Made by a program: the position numbers and the translations under genes. This document shows positions 33,757-40,995 of a DNA stretch of 40,995 bases, in pieces. The notes below the pieces were generated by a model. It ran no database searches and was not told the DNA's origin. It worked only from the letters and a program-made list of their open reading frames with translations. Every line of letters begins with the position of its first letter. The stretch's first letter is position 1. The stretch spans positions 1 through 40,995 of the forward strand of contig QIFK01000047.1 of the NCBI GenBank assembly GCA_003230615.1, given 5' to 3'. Source of the stretch: Nitrosospira sp. GTDB taxonomy: Bacteria; Pseudomonadota; Gammaproteobacteria; Burkholderiales; Nitrosomonadaceae.

Positions 33757-35889
33757 CTAAAACCCGCTCTCTCGAATTGCTACAGCACTAATTCGTTCAA
33801 GAATAGTTGGTAGCCATGCTCTAGCCTCGCCACTAATTACTACATTTCCAGTTTTCATTTGGCGACTCTCAGGCGGAGGGCTATCTAACTTCACACGTAC
33901 GCGATATATTGCATTTCGAGGGACATTTTTCTCGTTTTCCAAAGTAACAATATCACCACCTGACTTCGCATCTAAACTGTAATGCGGAAGCACTGTCGTC
34001 CGAGTAGCATCAACCTCAATGACTTGTCCTTGAAGCACACCAAGCCTTAAAGGCCTGTATACACGTGCTTTGTCACCCGGGCTTATTCGATGAACGTCCT
34101 CCTCAGTAACGTATGCATCAACTACCCATTGTGAATAGTCTACTAAGGTAGCTAAAGGTTGACTGGGTCGAATCCACACACCTGGTGCAAGATCAGAATC
34201 CAAATCTACAATCGTCCCAGAGAATGGCGCTGATATCTTTAATCGCGCTTGCTCTTCCTGAAATAGTTTCTCTTCGGCAACATACTGTTCTTGCTGTGCT
34301 CGTACTTGCTCTCTGCGCGCCTCGCCGTCTGGTAATCCCATTAAACCAATCAATTCTTTAGCGCGTGCTTGAGCAAGCCCCCTTGCTCGCTCTGCAGACA
34401 ACCGCAAGTCTGGAGACTCAAGAATAAACAATGGTTGTCCACTAGTTACATTTTCACTTTCTGGCAAACTAACTAGTCGCCCGGGTAAAGGCGAATAAAG
34501 AACATGTAAACGCTCTGGGTGCACCCATCCTGGTCCCCTAATCCCCGTATGCCATGGCACTAGCATCACCACCAGAATGATCCCAAGTAGCGCATAAGCT
34601 ATCCACACGCGACTGGTTTTAATTTCCGATTTTCTTTCACGCCACACACTTAATTCTGACCATATAGGTCGCCAAATAAACCAAATAAGCTCTACCACCA
34701 TAAGAATAATACCCAAGACCTTAAAGAAGAAATAATAAACCAATAACGCAAGACCAAGAAATACTACCAGTCGATACAGCCAAGTCATAATCGCAAATAC
34801 AATTAAAAATGTCCTGCCATTACCTTGAATGTCTTCAGGCCAGCCATCATTAAAACCAAACAAAACACGTCTAAGCCAAATACGGGTAAATTCACCAGAT
34901 CTCTGGTGCAAATTCGGGAAATCTATTGCGTCCATCAGGATAAAGTAGCCATCAAAGCGGAGAAATGGGCTTACATTCACTAATAACGTAAGCAACCAAC
35001 TTGTCGTAGCCAGAAAAAATAATGCACTTTTGATAGCCCCATCTGGTGATAGACTCCAAGCGAAAGTAGCTAAGCCTGCTAAAGCAAGCTCTGTGATGAT
35101 ACCGGCGCTTGCAATTGCCAAACGTTGTCGTGGGTTACTTAGTTTCCAGCTTTCACTGGTATCGGTATACAACATAGGAAACATTACTAACAATGCGACA
35201 CCCATGTGCGCTACTCTCACACCATAACGGGTTGCGGTTACTGCATGCCCCATTTCATGCAAAGCCTTTGCGAAAACTAGTGCCACCGAATACCCTAGCA
35301 AACCTGACCAAGTTAGCTGATCAACAAATGTATTAGAGAACGTTTCCCATTGCCGTGCAACTAGAAAAATTCCGACCAAGGTAAGAAAAATAACTGCAAT
35401 TGCAGTAGTACGAGTGAATATCCAATCAAGCCAGGGTATTAGGCTTGCTAACCAAACTTGCGGATGAAATAGAGGAATACGAAAAAAAAGATAGTGATGC
35501 AGCATCCAATTGATAAAACCTTTATTCAGTAATTTAGCATGCTCTCTAAGCTGATCAATAGCTTCCTGGCTGCTCGCTTGGAGCAAACCATTCTGCTCCA
35601 AAAAATGCTTTAAATCATTTACATCTGTAACCTCGATATCTAATGTGGTTTCGTTATTAACCGAATTTACGATTTTCTCTGGCGAACCGCAGGCCCAGCG
35701 CAATAACATCTCAAAATCAAGCCACCCAATACGAAAAAAACTATTATTAATGGGGTCTTGCACCATCCAAGCTAGCGATCCATCATGATTAGCTGCTGCG
35801 GGAAGCAATTTAAGCTCCTCACGCAGCGGAGGAAGAAAAATCTGACTATTCGACTCTGGGTGTACGTATGTACTCACAGGCCAGTCCAT
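33757..35889 (-). CDS. membrane M50 metalloprotease fused to HlyD-like adaptor domain
   Basis: A 710-residue fusion. Residues 1 to about 135 are soluble and contain a short winged-helix-like region (VQDPINNSFFRIGWLDFEML) reminiscent of PqqD-type peptide-binding domains. Residues about 160-445 hold roughly eight membrane segments with the site-2-protease signature HEMGH (211-215) and the distal NVSPFLRFDGYF (third metal ligand D313), so all zinc ligands are present. From about 450 on there is a barrel-sandwich/alpha-hairpin adaptor domain (YSPLPGRLVSLPE, LKISAPFSGTIVDLD) as in HlyD proteins. It probably works with the adjacent TolC and HlyD proteins. The ATG at 35889 overlaps the upstream gene by 16 bases; a GTG at 35877, overlapping its stop as GTGA, is an alternative start. 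Confidence 0.85.
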   Translation of the reverse strand: MDWPVSTYVHPESNSQIFLPPLREELKLLPAAANHDGSLAWMVQDPINNSFFRIGWLDFEMLLRWACGSPEKIVNSVNNETTLDIEVTDVNDLKHFLEQNGLLQASSQEAIDQLREHAKLLNKGFINWMLHHYLFFRIPLFHPQVWLASLIPWLDWIFTRTTAIAVIFLTLVGIFLVARQWETFSNTFVDQLTWSGLLGYSVALVFAKALHEMGHAVTATRYGVRVAHMGVALLVMFPMLYTDTSESWKLSNPRQRLAIASAGIITELALAGLATFAWSLSPDGAIKSALFFLATTSWLLTLLVNVSPFLRFDGYFILMDAIDFPNLHQRSGEFTRIWLRRVLFGFNDGWPEDIQGNGRTFLIVFAIMTWLYRLVVFLGLALLVYYFFFKVLGIILMVVELIWFIWRPIWSELSVWRERKSEIKTSRVWIAYALLGIILVVMLVPWHTGIRGPGWVHPERLHVLYSPLPGRLVSLPESENVTSGQPLFILESPDLRLSAERARGLAQARAKELIGLMGLPDGEARREQVRAQQEQYVAEEKLFQEEQARLKISAPFSGTIVDLDSDLAPGVWIRPSQPLATLVDYSQWVVDAYVTEEDVHRISPGDKARVYRPLRLGVLQGQVIEVDATRTTVLPHYSLDAKSGGDIVTLENEKNVPRNAIYRVRVKLDSPPPESRQMKTGNVVISGEARAWLPTILERISAVAIRESGF

Positions 35890-37232
35890 TCACGTACCGC
35901 AGTTACTGGTCTTCTAAAAAAATAATACCCTAGTGTGGCCCAATGACCAGAAATGCGAACGGTGCCGCGCAAACCAATACGTGGCTTCACCACACCCTCC
36001 TCAAATTCACCTTTTATTCGATATGCAGATACACCTTCTGGACTCATCACAGGTTGAAAACTGGTTTGCAATAATGCTGCAGACAATGGGTTAAGTGGGT
36101 CAATATGCAAAAATAAGCGCATTGGTGCACCAATATCTAAGTTTAATGCCTCGTGCACTGGTAACCATACCAGCACACCCGCATCTCTCGGATTCGCCAG
36201 TTGCATCACGCGTTCACCGGTTTGCACGGGCCTTCCTATCCAATCATTTGAGTCACCGTAGATTACGATACCATCACGCTCAGCCCTTACTTCTCCTCGT
36301 GCCATTAATGATTTTAATGATGCCAACTCAGCCTCTTTCTCGCGGACACGACCTATTGCAGAAGCAATCTCACCCTTACTTTTCAGATCATTAAACGCGC
36401 GCTGTTGTGCATTTAAAGCATCAGCACGTGCTATTGACAATGCCTTGGCTGCTACATCCAGCCTACTAGTTACAGTGGTGTTATCTAATGAGAACAATAA
36501 ATCGCCAACATTAACTACTGAGTTTGGTTGCACGTAAATTTTACTAATTACACCATCTTGTGGAGCCGCAACAGCAAACGCATTTAAAGCTATAATCTCA
36601 CCAGGAGCTAAAACAGATAAACGAACAGGAATAGACAATCCTACAAAAATTGCAATTACTGCCCAGTAACTGACTGCCTTACTCATCCATCCACGTAGTC
36701 TTGTAATAAAATTAACCTTTACTTCGCTTAAAAAGCCAAGACAAGACCCGTAGATCTGATGTATGTGATCCAACTTCTCAAGTTCATGGGGAAGCCATGA
36801 TTCTTCTCTGGCATACATCACCATCCCCAGACAAGTGCCAGTTTGGCTAAACAACTCCGCGAACAGTAAATGTTCGGGTAACCACTCCTCCCAACCATCT
36901 TTAAATTCTTCTGGCGCCTCTGCAAAATCAAGCTTATGACAACCAGCTTCTTTTGGAAGTATTTTTAAGACAGTTTTAATAAAACCGCTAAGCCATATAG
37001 CGTAGGGCGAATCTTCTGCCACGCTCACCAAACCTGATGCGGTGGTTAGCTTACGCTCTCCAATAGCCGATACTGTAAAGAACGCTGCTTGCCGATATGG
37101 CACCAAGGCTATTGTTTCATTAACAATAATAAAAGACAGGTCTACCGGATTGATAGCTTTTACAGAACGTAAATCTAAGCTGAGAAGTGCGTCTAATGCG
37201 GGCTGCTTTGGAGCTTCGTTGACATTATCCAT
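35874..37232 (-). CDS. membrane-anchored HlyD-type adaptor with large N-terminal cytoplasmic domain
   Basis: A 452-residue protein. Residues 1 to about 185 are soluble and contain a regulatory-looking, possibly GAF-like fold (ALVPYRQAAFFTVSAIGER ... LFAELFSQTGTCLGMVMYA). A single membrane segment follows at about 190-212 (WAVIAIFVGLSIPVRLSVL). After it comes a periplasmic adaptor: first lipoyl half APQDGVISKIYVQPNSVVNVGDLLF, a helical hairpin, second half VRAERDGIVIYGD, and a beta-barrel. It is thus an unusual membrane-fusion protein with a sensor-like N-terminus. It lies 49 bases after the smaller HlyD gene and overlaps the M50 fusion gene. The GAF assignment is tentative. Confidence 0.8.
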   Translation of the reverse strand: MDNVNEAPKQPALDALLSLDLRSVKAINPVDLSFIIVNETIALVPYRQAAFFTVSAIGERKLTTASGLVSVAEDSPYAIWLSGFIKTVLKILPKEAGCHKLDFAEAPEEFKDGWEEWLPEHLLFAELFSQTGTCLGMVMYAREESWLPHELEKLDHIHQIYGSCLGFLSEVKVNFITRLRGWMSKAVSYWAVIAIFVGLSIPVRLSVLAPGEIIALNAFAVAAPQDGVISKIYVQPNSVVNVGDLLFSLDNTTVTSRLDVAAKALSIARADALNAQQRAFNDLKSKGEIASAIGRVREKEAELASLKSLMARGEVRAERDGIVIYGDSNDWIGRPVQTGERVMQLANPRDAGVLVWLPVHEALNLDIGAPMRLFLHIDPLNPLSAALLQTSFQPVMSPEGVSAYRIKGEFEEGVVKPRIGLRGTVRISGHWATLGYYFFRRPVTAVREWTGL

Positions 37233-37281: not shown

Positions 37282-38274
37282 CTACATTGCAGGTATTATT
37301 GCTGTACCACTCATTCCTGCAAGTAGTTCAGGAAAATCCTGAGACATCAAACCTTCAATCTCAATTGTTTGACTAACAGAGTCAACACGACTGTTAATGG
37401 CTACCACACTTGCTTGGTATGTTTTCCCGGTCTCATCGATTTTTACTTCAATCTTCGAGTCAACCTTAAGTTGATTCAGTAATCTGGATGGAACGTTCAC
37501 TTTCAACCTTAACGGACCAGACTTCACCAAATCAAGCATCGGTTGCCCAGGTGTAACGGTCATGTGGTTACGTACGTAAACTTTTGCAACACGACCAGCC
37601 CAAGGTGCTTTGATCGAGCAATATCTTATTTGCAATTCTGCTAAGCTAACATCTGCACGAGCTTTAGCTACAACACTTGCCGCCAGTGAAACTTCGACAT
37701 CACCCGCTTGATCTAAACCCTGCATTCTTAACTTTGCTGTGTGCGTCTCTACAGCACCTGATAGTTCTGCTTTAGCCATATCCCGTCGTGCCCGTGGATC
37801 ATTACAATTAAAGGTGATTAGTGTATTACCAGATTTAAACGTGCTGCCCAAGGTTACATTCAATTTGTTGATTCGAGCGGCTGCCAGGCTGGAACCTGAC
37901 CGAGAAACAGTTGTTTCTTGGTCAGGGATAAGCAAAACGCGCACTATTTCAGTTCCAACAGTACTCGTTTCTTTTACCTGATTTTCGTAAACATCATCTC
38001 TATCGGAATTAGAATCGACTAAAGTTTCCGCATTTTTAGTGTCAGAGCCTGTAGTTTTAAGACCTACGCCAGTCTGACTCTTTTCCGAAGATACATTAAT
38101 TGATTGAGCTGGACTATTAGTAACCGCTTTAGTATCAGTAGCAACTGTAGTTTTAACTACTTTACCGTTCGTGGCCTTATCTGCATCCACTTCAGTTGAT
38201 TCAGTAGATTCAGGCGTAAGCAATACGGTCACTAAAATCAGGATTGCCAAGCTACCACTAAGCCAATATATCAT
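37282..38274 (-). CDS. HlyD/RND-type periplasmic adaptor protein
   Basis: A 330-residue adaptor. Residues 1-20 form an N-terminal membrane anchor (MIYWLSGSLAILILVTVLL), followed by about 90 residues of Thr/Ser/Asp-rich linker. Then comes the adaptor core: first half LNVTLGSTFKSGNTLITFNCNDP, a hairpin, and the second half APWAGRVAKVYVRNHMTVTPGQPMLDL, with a C-terminal barrel. The start at ATG 38274 overlaps the TolC stop (ATGA) and has AAAGGAG five bases upstream; ten residues of upstream frame are therefore not used. It probably bridges the inner membrane components and the TolC-like channel. Confidence 0.87.
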   Translation of the reverse strand: MIYWLSGSLAILILVTVLLTPESTESTEVDADKATNGKVVKTTVATDTKAVTNSPAQSINVSSEKSQTGVGLKTTGSDTKNAETLVDSNSDRDDVYENQVKETSTVGTEIVRVLLIPDQETTVSRSGSSLAAARINKLNVTLGSTFKSGNTLITFNCNDPRARRDMAKAELSGAVETHTAKLRMQGLDQAGDVEVSLAASVVAKARADVSLAELQIRYCSIKAPWAGRVAKVYVRNHMTVTPGQPMLDLVKSGPLRLKVNVPSRLLNQLKVDSKIEVKIDETGKTYQASVVAINSRVDSVSQTIEIEGLMSQDFPELLAGMSGTAIIPAM

Positions 38275-40172
38275 TGATACTCCTTTCCTAACTCTACCAG
38301 CCATGAGCGGAGTTCAGGGAGTGTGGAAGTTACTGCCGCAATTAATGCGCTTTCATATGCCAAGTCACGTGAGTCACTTGGTATTGTGGTTACAAATTTT
38401 GCTGATTTTTTATTCATGCCGTCGTGGTCTTCTAGCACTAGTGCCCAGGAAGCTGTCTCTATCTCGTCATTCGGGATACGTTGTAATATAAGTACGAAGG
38501 GAAAACCTTTGTCTGCATCCAAATCGATCTGATGACGTGCTAATAATACGGCCACTTGTGCTTTCATGCGAACCTGCATGACCGGATCCTCAACTCCTAC
38601 AAATGTAATCGAAATTGTTGGCAAATGGCCAAATAAATTAGATGTCATTCTAAGCGTATCTTCTTCGGTTGCTTTAATGTGCTCACGAATACGCCCAGTT
38701 AAAATTTCCAGAGTATCATCTTCAAAATTATCAGGAAGTGGATCAAAACCTAGTGTATTGTAAAGACGCCCAAAGGCAATCTGTGCATTCGCGTATGCAT
38801 TAGCTCGTTGGTAAGCGCCCAATACTGCTCGTGCATTGGTTCTGATTGCTTCTAATTCACTACTCAGTCTGGCTGTAACAGAGGCACGCATATTGGAAGC
38901 TAAGCGCTGATCTACTTGAGCACCGATATCTGCCAGTTTGAAATCTAGTATTGCTAATCGATATCGCTCTGCACTTACACGCAATTGGGTCATAATCGCC
39001 ATCGACAAGGCCATTCTTCTTGAACGATCGACTTCGACTTGCCCTTCTTGAGTTTTAAGAAGGGTAGGTAAGGTTGCAAGGCGCATTATATTCCAGGACA
39101 CCCTAATACCACCCTGGAACCAGTTGTTGTTATAAAGAAGGTTATTGGAATCAAAACTAAATCCATAGTCTAAGCTTACGGATGGCAGCATACTAAGTAA
39201 TTGTTTGCGTGTCTCATCTGCGGTAATGCGTTTCTTGGAGTCCTCTTGACGCAACTCTGGGCGCTGAAGCAATGCCAGCTCTTCGAGCTTACGGATATCA
39301 GTTGGTGGCGCAGGTAGTTTAGATTCTTCCGATTCTTCCAGAATGAAAACTACACCTGGCTCAACGTTCATCAATGCAGCCAGCTCTCGCTTGGCAATCT
39401 CCAGGTCTTGTCGACGCAAATTTAGCAAAGAAATCGCATCTAATAGAGCCCGTTGATAGTTTAAGGCAAGCGCTGGTGGAATAAGACGCTGTGCCTCAGC
39501 TTCACGTGAACGGGCTAATGCCAGATTAGCTTGGTCAAGAATCTCTTTTGCATCTTTAGAAAGCCTCTGTGCACCCAATGCACGCCAGAAGGAGGTGCGC
39601 ACATCTTGCACCATGTTTTGAACAACTTTACGACGGCGTTCTTCAGCAATTAGGAATTTATCTGCTTGCTGACGTGCACGATAATAGGAAACACCAAAGT
39701 CGAGCAAGTTCCAGGAAAATTCAGCAGCCGCTTGTGCATGATTTTTTTGTGTTGCCCTAGATGGTCGCAATGAAATCTGTTTATCTATGATACCTATAGA
39801 CGTACCACCCGGCTCGTTTTGGCGCGTACGATAGCCTGCTGAGGTGAGTAGCTTAGGTAACATGTCATAGGTGGCTAATCCCGTGAGACCTAATTCAAGC
39901 GCTGATTCCATCTGCTTCAACCGATAATCAAGGTTATATTTCAGTGTACGCGCTATGGCTTCCTCAACTGAAACCGGCCCGTTGATGGGTTCCTGGTTTA
40001 GATACATACCAGCGGTATCTTCATCAACCCGGGCCCTTACCTCTTCTTGAGTAAATGGCTTAGGTATAATAGCGCACCCTGAAAATAATAGAGGTAACAC
40101 TAAACCAATTCCAACAAGAAGTTTCTTAGAAGTCACCGTTGTAGCTGAAGTATTCAATAGTGCTCCCATCAT
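38271..40172 (-). CDS. TolC-family outer-membrane lipoprotein with C-terminal extension
   Basis: A 633-residue outer-membrane efflux channel. The signal peptide ends in a lipobox (LLFSGC), so the mature N-terminus is probably lipidated. Two OEP repeats follow, with long amphipathic helices (LKYNLDYRLKQMESALELGL; LNLRRQDLEIAKRELAALMN; AYQRANAYANAQIAFGRLYNTLG). TolC-like proteins usually end near residue 450-500. Here about 130 further residues form a mixed alpha/beta tail (LPTISITFVGVEDPVMQVRM ... PFVLILQRIPND) that I do not recognise. Its start overlaps the stop of the surface-protein gene (ATGATG), so the two are translationally coupled. ATG 40169 is an equally good start. Confidence 0.88.
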   Translation of the reverse strand: MMGALLNTSATTVTSKKLLVGIGLVLPLLFSGCAIIPKPFTQEEVRARVDEDTAGMYLNQEPINGPVSVEEAIARTLKYNLDYRLKQMESALELGLTGLATYDMLPKLLTSAGYRTRQNEPGGTSIGIIDKQISLRPSRATQKNHAQAAAEFSWNLLDFGVSYYRARQQADKFLIAEERRRKVVQNMVQDVRTSFWRALGAQRLSKDAKEILDQANLALARSREAEAQRLIPPALALNYQRALLDAISLLNLRRQDLEIAKRELAALMNVEPGVVFILEESEESKLPAPPTDIRKLEELALLQRPELRQEDSKKRITADETRKQLLSMLPSVSLDYGFSFDSNNLLYNNNWFQGGIRVSWNIMRLATLPTLLKTQEGQVEVDRSRRMALSMAIMTQLRVSAERYRLAILDFKLADIGAQVDQRLASNMRASVTARLSSELEAIRTNARAVLGAYQRANAYANAQIAFGRLYNTLGFDPLPDNFEDDTLEILTGRIREHIKATEEDTLRMTSNLFGHLPTISITFVGVEDPVMQVRMKAQVAVLLARHQIDLDADKGFPFVLILQRIPNDEIETASWALVLEDHDGMNKKSAKFVTTIPSDSRDLAYESALIAAVTSTLPELRSWLVELGKEYQ

Positions 40173-40995
40173 TCTACGTTTGGTGCACTATCTGAAGGTG
40201 CAGGCTTATTTGTGGCGATTTTTTGTAGCTCGCCAAGTAACTGGCTACTAAAGCTTTTAGCGGGTTTTTTCTTATCCAGATTTTCTCCTGAATCTTCTTC
40301 TTGATCCAATTTAGTGATTGGTTCTGGCTCAACGGTATAACTCCGCTTAGCTTGGGAATCGTCTAGATTCAACTGAGGCCTCTCACTTTGAATAGCTGTC
40401 TCGCTCACCAGATTCTCAGCAGCAGCTCGTTTTATTTGGTTATCTCCTCCATTTATTGGCTGTTTAGGATCAACCAATTGTTTATCAGTTGCAGATAGAT
40501 TTAATGGTGCGAATGGATCAATAATACTTGCTACTGCTGGAATAGCGGTATTGTCAACAGATGCAGCATGTATTCCCTGTGCGGTCGATTCTAGCTGCGA
40601 TGCCTTAACCGCTTGCTGTACGGATGATGAAGAACTTTCCAAAACTACATGCCTCACAGCATTTTGCACGTATGTTGGCGTATTAGATTCAGAACCCGTT
40701 CCAGCAATTAACTCAGCTCTAGTAGCGCTATCCGTTTCAAACACCCCTAGCCGCGAATTTAAGGCAGTCTCGTTACGAATATTATGGATAGCGGACAAGA
40801 TAGGTGACATTGGATCGTTAGCTACTTGCCATTCATGTATAGCCTCGTTAATTGAATCGATATTCAAAAAACTTTCCGGTTCCAAGAAACGACGTTCTGG
40901 ACCTGGCGCATCGTCGACTGGGGTCACATTAATCGTGACGTCATCGCTATCCGTTAGTGGTGTACCACTACTGTCAGTAGAGAGAACCGTTAAGG
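40169..40995 (-). CDS. C-terminal end of a large VCBS/cadherin-like surface protein (runs off right edge)
   Basis: The frame is open to the window edge. It reads in with LTVLSTDSSGTPLTDSDD followed by VTINVTPVDDAPG, the typical closing strand and linker of VCBS/cadherin-like adhesin repeats. After that comes a tail of about 250 residues that is Ser/Ala/Glu/Asn-rich and probably disordered. It ends in KSFSSQLLGELQKIATN and a Pro/Ser-rich C-terminus. No RTX nonapeptides (GGxGxDxxx) are seen in this part. The GTG at 40927 is not a real start. It is the probable substrate of the export genes that follow. The full size and N-terminus lie outside the window. Confidence 0.82.
   Translation of the reverse strand, partial: LTVLSTDSSGTPLTDSDDVTINVTPVDDAPGPERRFLEPESFLNIDSINEAIHEWQVANDPMSPILSAIHNIRNETALNSRLGVFETDSATRAELIAGTGSESNTPTYVQNAVRHVVLESSSSSVQQAVKASQLESTAQGIHAASVDNTAIPAVASIIDPFAPLNLSATDKQLVDPKQPINGGDNQIKRAAAENLVSETAIQSERPQLNLDDSQAKRSYTVEPEPITKLDQEEDSGENLDKKKPAKSFSSQLLGELQKIATNKPAPSDSAPNVE

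Follow-up and report, generated by a model that had tools for sequence, protein, structure and literature searches.

The window analyzed here, a stretch of 40,995 nucleotides from Nitrosospira sp. (contig QIFK01000047.1), encodes on its minus strand a single chain in which a PqqD-like region, a site-2 protease core and a HlyD adaptor are joined; the first-pass annotation had read this architecture from the sequence, and open reading frame analysis, Pfam, AlphaFold and VIA-align confirm it. Co-occurrence and gene order strongly support a partnership of the fusion family with giant adhesins carrying a LEPR motif, and the fusion protein is probably a leader-guided protease-adaptor dedicated to these LEPR-XLL adhesins, which it would trim at the cytoplasmic face of the membrane during export. 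The gene and its parts are as follows.

33757..35889, minus strand: RRE-M50-HlyD fusion gene, 710 aa from ATG (ORF and translation)
35575..35835, minus strand: RRE/PqqD-fold domain, residues 19-105, predicted to be leader-binding (AlphaFold model, VIA-align)
34720..35316, minus strand: site-2 protease (M50) membrane core, residues 192-390 (Pfam M50, RseP alignment)
35245..35259, minus strand: HEMGH, residues 211-215, two zinc ligands and the catalytic Glu (invariant H, E, H)
34948..34977, minus strand: NVSPFLRFDG, residues 305-314, with the third zinc ligand D313 (invariant N305, P308, R311-Y315)
33823..34554, minus strand: periplasmic adaptor (barrel-sandwich, short hairpin), residues 446-689, nearest to MacA (Pfam, VIA-align)

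Within the 710-aa protein, the Pfam models Peptidase_M50 (residues 201-277), HlyD_D23 (478-626) and HlyD_3 (551-631) all exceed their cut-offs, and the full-chain AlphaFold model, built from an alignment of 62 sequences, has a mean pLDDT of 88.3. Residues ~446-689 align to MacA with Z 15-16 in VIA-align, making the adaptor MacA/AcrA-like; together with the HlyD models this bears out the proposal of a barrel-sandwich domain behind the protease in the same chain. The best 50 matches of a full-chain Foldseek search were adaptors only, and RseP and the RREs surfaced with VIA-align. The novelty implied by presenting these parts as one polypeptide is weaker than it seemed, since the fusion is widespread and labelled an ordinary HlyD-family adaptor in public genomes.

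RseP of E. coli and of Aquifex aligns with the protease core at Z 10.1-10.3 over 162 residues (rmsd 4.1), and a single-sequence search with the M50 stretch gave no match. H211, E212, H215, N305, P308 and R311-Y315 are invariant in the 62 aligned sequences, in which the relatives are 36-87% identical to the window protein, and both HExxH and PF[ML]RFDGY are intact in the loci of 78/78 relatives, so the motifs are not there by chance. The earlier assignment of a complete set of M50 zinc-site residues, with HEMGH at 211-215 and D313 as the aspartate ligand, is thus correct. The domain folds and catalytic residues of the fusion are, in sum, supported by computation. Hydropathy indicates six strong transmembrane segments plus a less hydrophobic helix bearing HExxH, about 7 transmembrane helices altogether, and the predicted topology has the N-terminus with the RRE inside the cell and the HlyD part in the periplasm. 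In this prediction each of the two zinc motifs lies where its helix ends on the cytoplasmic side. With the zinc-ligand motifs on the cytoplasmic side, beside the RRE, the enzyme should act there, and we infer from the residues and the predicted topology that M50 cleavage would occur at the cytoplasmic face. RseP shares the core fold and the zinc motifs but has periplasmic PDZ domains and an anti-sigma factor as its substrate, whereas the fusion has an RRE in front, an adaptor behind and an adhesin as partner.

The best-scoring protease models in NCBIfam were those of the daptide M50 protease (NF041824; 176.9 bits, E 6.5e-52, below the curated cut-off of 300 bits) and of YydH/LiaK (NF058609; 40.5 bits, E 2.5e-10, below the curated cut-off of 225 bits). 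The YydH/LiaK epipeptide and daptide proteases resemble the fusion in their RiPP leader-processing logic, yet the fusion scores far under both cut-offs and has a periplasmic adaptor, and it is paired with a protein thousands of residues long, whereas they have a short RiPP precursor.

At the N-terminus, residues 27-99 form a bbb-aaa arrangement, three strands followed by three helices, in the AlphaFold model. When this region was modelled alone from a 51-sequence alignment, the mean pLDDT was 77.3, with ~87-91 over residues 21-100. Its top matches in VIA-align, over 80-82 residues, were 6jx3 (Z 11.0), 5v1u (10.6) and 5v1v (10.4), which are leader-binding RREs of lasso-peptide B1 proteins, and the next matches were mostly RRE-bearing RiPP enzymes. 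The first-pass annotation had described the N-terminal ~135 residues as a peptide-recognition module and had suggested comparing their predicted structure with PqqD/RRE folds; that comparison gave a three-strand, three-helix winged fold with Z 11.0 to 6jx3, and the part of the claim that stands is a predicted RRE/PqqD fold over ~100 residues. No credible Pfam match, PqqD included, was found for the region, and its sequence gave chance matches only against the PDB; PqqD was touched weakly by 2 of 51 relatives (best E 0.0028). Judged by sequence, a PqqD assignment of the window protein was weak and fell short of significance; the predicted structure then made the fold clear. The lasso-peptide B1 domains such as TbiB1 have the same bbb-aaa fold (Z 10-11); in contrast, the window protein lacks a PqqD Pfam match, and leader binding by the cytoplasmic RRE is what the fold would suggest here.

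The fusion gene is the last of an operon read from the minus strand in the order adhesin 3' end, outer membrane factor (OMF), membrane fusion protein (MFP), HlyD adaptor with a cytoplasmic domain, and fusion, with stops and starts that overlap or almost touch. The overlap is 4 nt between the adhesin stop and the OMF start, and 16 nt between the HlyD adaptor gene and the start of the M50 gene.

40169..40995, minus strand: 3' end of the giant adhesin gene, the contig ending at 40995 (translation)
40214..40255, minus strand: region near the adhesin C-terminus with an imperfect version of the family motif, SFSSQLLGELQKIA (translation)
38271..40172, minus strand: TolC/OprM-type OMF, 633 aa, with signal peptide and lipobox LLFSGC (Pfam OEP, E 1.8e-20)
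37282..38304, minus strand: RND-type MFP, 340 aa as a mechanical ORF (TIGR01730, 96.8 bits, cut-off 94.9)
35874..37232, minus strand: HlyD-family adaptor, 452 aa, with a ~190-residue cytoplasmic domain and one transmembrane helix at 191-209 (Pfam, hydropathy)

The true start of the MFP is possibly an internal ATG near 38274. Residues 1-190 of the HlyD adaptor form a conserved cytoplasmic domain for which Pfam gave no match, and the sister-type homologue described below has a weak GAF match there (E 7e-4). The OMF carries a C-terminal extension of ~150 residues (~480-633) past its OEP-like part. The window adhesin is of the cadherin/VCBS type, its 5' part lying outside the window. The family motif at its C-terminus, [SGA]Fxx[QR][LVI]xxx[AG] (SFxxQLxxAA), occurs in the last 70 aa of 31/48 window-type adhesins as against 5/1193 internal windows of the same length, at a median of 26 residues from the end among the adhesins of loci L033-L108, and it may possibly serve as an anchor or plug.

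Relatives were sought in one genome per species across 84,980 species (GTDB), and at least 587 loci encode one. Of these, 80 loci were kept, in most of which the order large ORF, OMF, MFP, HlyD, M50 is the rule; they come from Beta-, Gamma- and Alphaproteobacteria and others, and Azospirillum has the same genes in a different order. E. coli IncF plasmids carry the whole operon (L021, L024, L031) with a 4,459-aa adhesin of the Ig/cadherin type, the relative being annotated merely as a HlyD adaptor; its gene is present in 24/5,426 complete E. coli genomes, and the M50 gene is also found on Citrobacter plasmids. Neither the fusion nor the operon is therefore unique to this locus. A PAS-GGDEF-EAL gene lies within the operon of two relatives (L029:15026-18046, L164:5055-8075) and an EAL pseudogene lies upstream of the operon on the E. 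coli plasmid; control by c-di-GMP is possible where GGDEF-EAL genes accompany the operon.

The adhesin starts encoded next to the protease genes carry LExR-x-[hydrophobic]-[FYL]-D-[AG], or a form that differs from it at one residue, usually 8 to 83 residues from the listed start. Two of the four adhesin N-termini tested pass the cut-off of 17 of the NCBIfam model LEPR-XLL (NF012209), with 17.4 and 18.5 bits; the name of that model gives no partner. The nine leaders measured lack a Sec-like hydrophobic core: their best 11-residue hydropathy is 0.5-1.8, whereas two true signal peptides reach 2.6-2.7.

In a class-wide sample of 370 genomes, with the protease called at E <= 1e-100, the window-type protease was present in 20 genomes of about 15 families. 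For the adhesins we used the strict DNA pattern LEPR..[FY]D[AG] and counted it only near the start of a large ORF, because the raw pattern includes chance matches: outside the protease-positive genomes nearly all raw matches lay inside unrelated ORFs or in no ORF, and the reversed pattern also gives background. An ORF with this N-terminal motif was found in 10/20 protease-positive genomes versus 1/350 others (Fisher p 1.7e-13, a significance overstated by the shared ancestry of the genomes). In the one exception, G166, the ORF with the motif sits on a contig of 4 kb. In 7 of the 10 double-positive genomes the motif gene is on the contig of the protease, within 40 kb; half of the 20 have no strict motif, and there variants (LEKR, for example) or contig breaks are found. 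In one genome (G417) a single protease locus was detected, while LEPR proteins are encoded at two further places (contigs C5 and C12, loci L150 and L151); a protease may thus have more than one substrate.

In the source genome the LEPR pattern has a single match, in an ORF on another contig (G000:C46:12712; L138:4566-7937) that reaches 1124 aa before it runs off the contig end. It begins with an ESPR region, followed shortly by LEPRIVFDGA and then by DUF4347, without a hydrophobic signal core, and its repeat contains INVTPVDD, as does the adhesin end in the window. Judging from these sequences, the ORF is probably part of the same gene as the adhesin 3' end of the window.

A second, divergent M50-HlyD subfamily, at 25-33% identity and mostly beginning with SWYRVA, is present in 4 of 61 relatives (G027, G041, G046, G051). 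A LEPRxLLSA partner was guessed for it beforehand, and the pattern matched 4/4 subfamily genomes versus 0/57 others, each time near the N-terminus of a large ORF. Repeated class-wide, LEPRxLLSA was found in 11/29 subfamily-positive genomes versus 0/341 others, a count that leaves out G359, whose match is internal to an unrelated ORF. Fisher tests gave 1.9e-6 for the 61 relatives and 1.0e-12 class-wide (the internal match still counted), both overstated by kinship, and the positives of both motif/protease surveys are spread across many families. A SecA paralogue of 650-730 aa stands beside the M50-HlyD gene in 10/14 further loci of this subtype that were sampled. Loci with the paralogue (L172:3695-5800, L171:4298-6433, L145:327-2306, L201, L203-L205, L207-L211) show SecA_DEAD, preprotein cross-linking and P-loop domains, and none was found at L199, L200, L202, L206 and L177. 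A third, divergent M50-HlyD variant (L215:5915-8425) adjoins an 836-aa protein starting MRKLEQRVVLDAAAVA, together with an OMF and adaptors.

How the adhesin crosses the inner membrane is the least certain step. The window operon has two components of type I secretion systems (T1SS), a HlyD-family adaptor and a TolC-type channel, but encodes no ABC transporter, and an ABC signature was present in almost none of the 80 loci. Membership of an ordinary T1SS was set aside because the module encodes no ABC transporter. Among the 20 protease-positive genomes, the LssB model was over its cut-off in one and the PrtD model in four (G010, G022, G034, G036 and G407 being the genomes concerned), three further genomes had strong sub-threshold LssB matches, and the remainder, the source genome included, were far below the cut-offs, scoring as housekeeping ABC exporters would be expected to. 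In the source genome, a 95.6% complete draft, the top LssB match scored 274.7 bits and the top PrtD match 222.6, both well short of the cut-offs, and neither the single-contig genome G258 nor the near-complete G162 and G205 had a match near either. The surroundings of the 80 window-type loci yielded no SecA paralogue, and in the genomes searched that have the window subtype alone only the housekeeping SecA is present. ESPR is an extension seen before the Sec signal peptides of type V substrates. Since the module normally has no ABC transporter and most of the genomes checked have no recognisable LssB/PrtD-type one, passage is probably by SecA, a guess that leans on the SecA paralogues of the sister subtype, on ESPR and on the scarcity of such ABC transporters.

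In the mechanism that we favour, the cytoplasmic RRE would bind the LEPR..FDGA leader of the adhesin, and the M50 site, which faces the cytoplasm by predicted topology, would cleave within the leader or close to it when export begins. The fused adaptor, the HlyD with the cytoplasmic domain and the MFP would connect this site to the OMF and couple processing with outward passage; the coupling of protease and tunnel is suggested by the fusion and the operon. Inner-membrane passage would be driven by SecA, the housekeeping enzyme here and the paralogue in much of the sister subtype. The first-pass annotation had proposed cleavage coupled to transport, either removal of a leader or release of an anchor: leader removal fits the giant adhesin partner and its conserved N-terminal tag, and anchor release fits less well with an active site that is cytoplasmic by predicted topology.

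The same components could also belong to a T1SS whose ABC transporter is encoded elsewhere, in which case the M50-HlyD protein would be an accessory adaptor and clip the leader as well. HlyD and TolC relatives next to a giant repeat adhesin are hallmarks of such systems, DDxP adhesins usually lie near T1SS genes (PMC7730722), and there are the five genomes over the T1SS ABC cut-offs and the three with strong sub-threshold matches. We nevertheless regard this as unlikely in view of the near absence of ABC signatures at the 80 loci, the low LssB and PrtD scores of most of the 20 genomes and a sister subtype that brings a SecA paralogue and no ABC transporter. T1SS adhesins such as LapA, SiiE and the RTX/DDxP proteins share with the present system the giant repeat adhesin, HlyD-family adaptors and a TolC-type channel, but here the module is without an ABC transporter, the adhesin has an N-terminal LEPR tag, and there are several adaptors, one of them fused to a protease.

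Release of an envelope-placed adhesin from its anchor, in the way that LapG acts on LapA, seems more improbable still. The partner is a surface adhesin, and the GGDEF-EAL genes in the operons of L029 and L164 are reminiscent of the c-di-GMP control of LapG; but LapG is periplasmic, whereas both the M50 site and the RRE are predicted to be cytoplasmic, and the conserved tag lies near the adhesin N-terminus, with no transmembrane segment. Among the Pfam matches of the window operon genes there is no LapG-type protease family. There is, finally, very little likelihood that the M50 domain serves solely as a scaffold or regulator in the membrane, with the fusion acting as an ordinary periplasmic adaptor, as its public annotation as a HlyD-family adaptor and the fusion of another adaptor of the same operon to an extra domain might suggest, because a scaffold would not need catalytic residues that are kept in 78/78 relatives at identities down to 36-39%.

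By analogy, the fusion would work much as a RiPP leader protease does, with a tripartite export tunnel attached to it. What is new here is the tie between LEPR-XLL adhesins and the M50-HlyD family, together with the matched switch of motif and protease subtype; no description of the pairing was found in the literature searched, where coverage of subscription journals and preprints was thin. LEPR-XLL, a named yet orphan signal found on some of the largest proteins in bacteria, now has a candidate receptor and processing enzyme. More tentatively, it could be a non-classical export signal that RRE-M50-HlyD proteins read. With the cytoplasmic-domain HlyD, the MFP and the OMF, these would then make up a separate secretion pathway for giant surface proteins, one that SecA and not an ABC transporter drives and whose motif and protease subtypes match across many proteobacteria, the E. 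coli plasmid version included. The family may thus represent a possible route of adhesin export that carries no ABC transporter, and hundreds of genes annotated simply as HlyD adaptors may code for leader peptidases.
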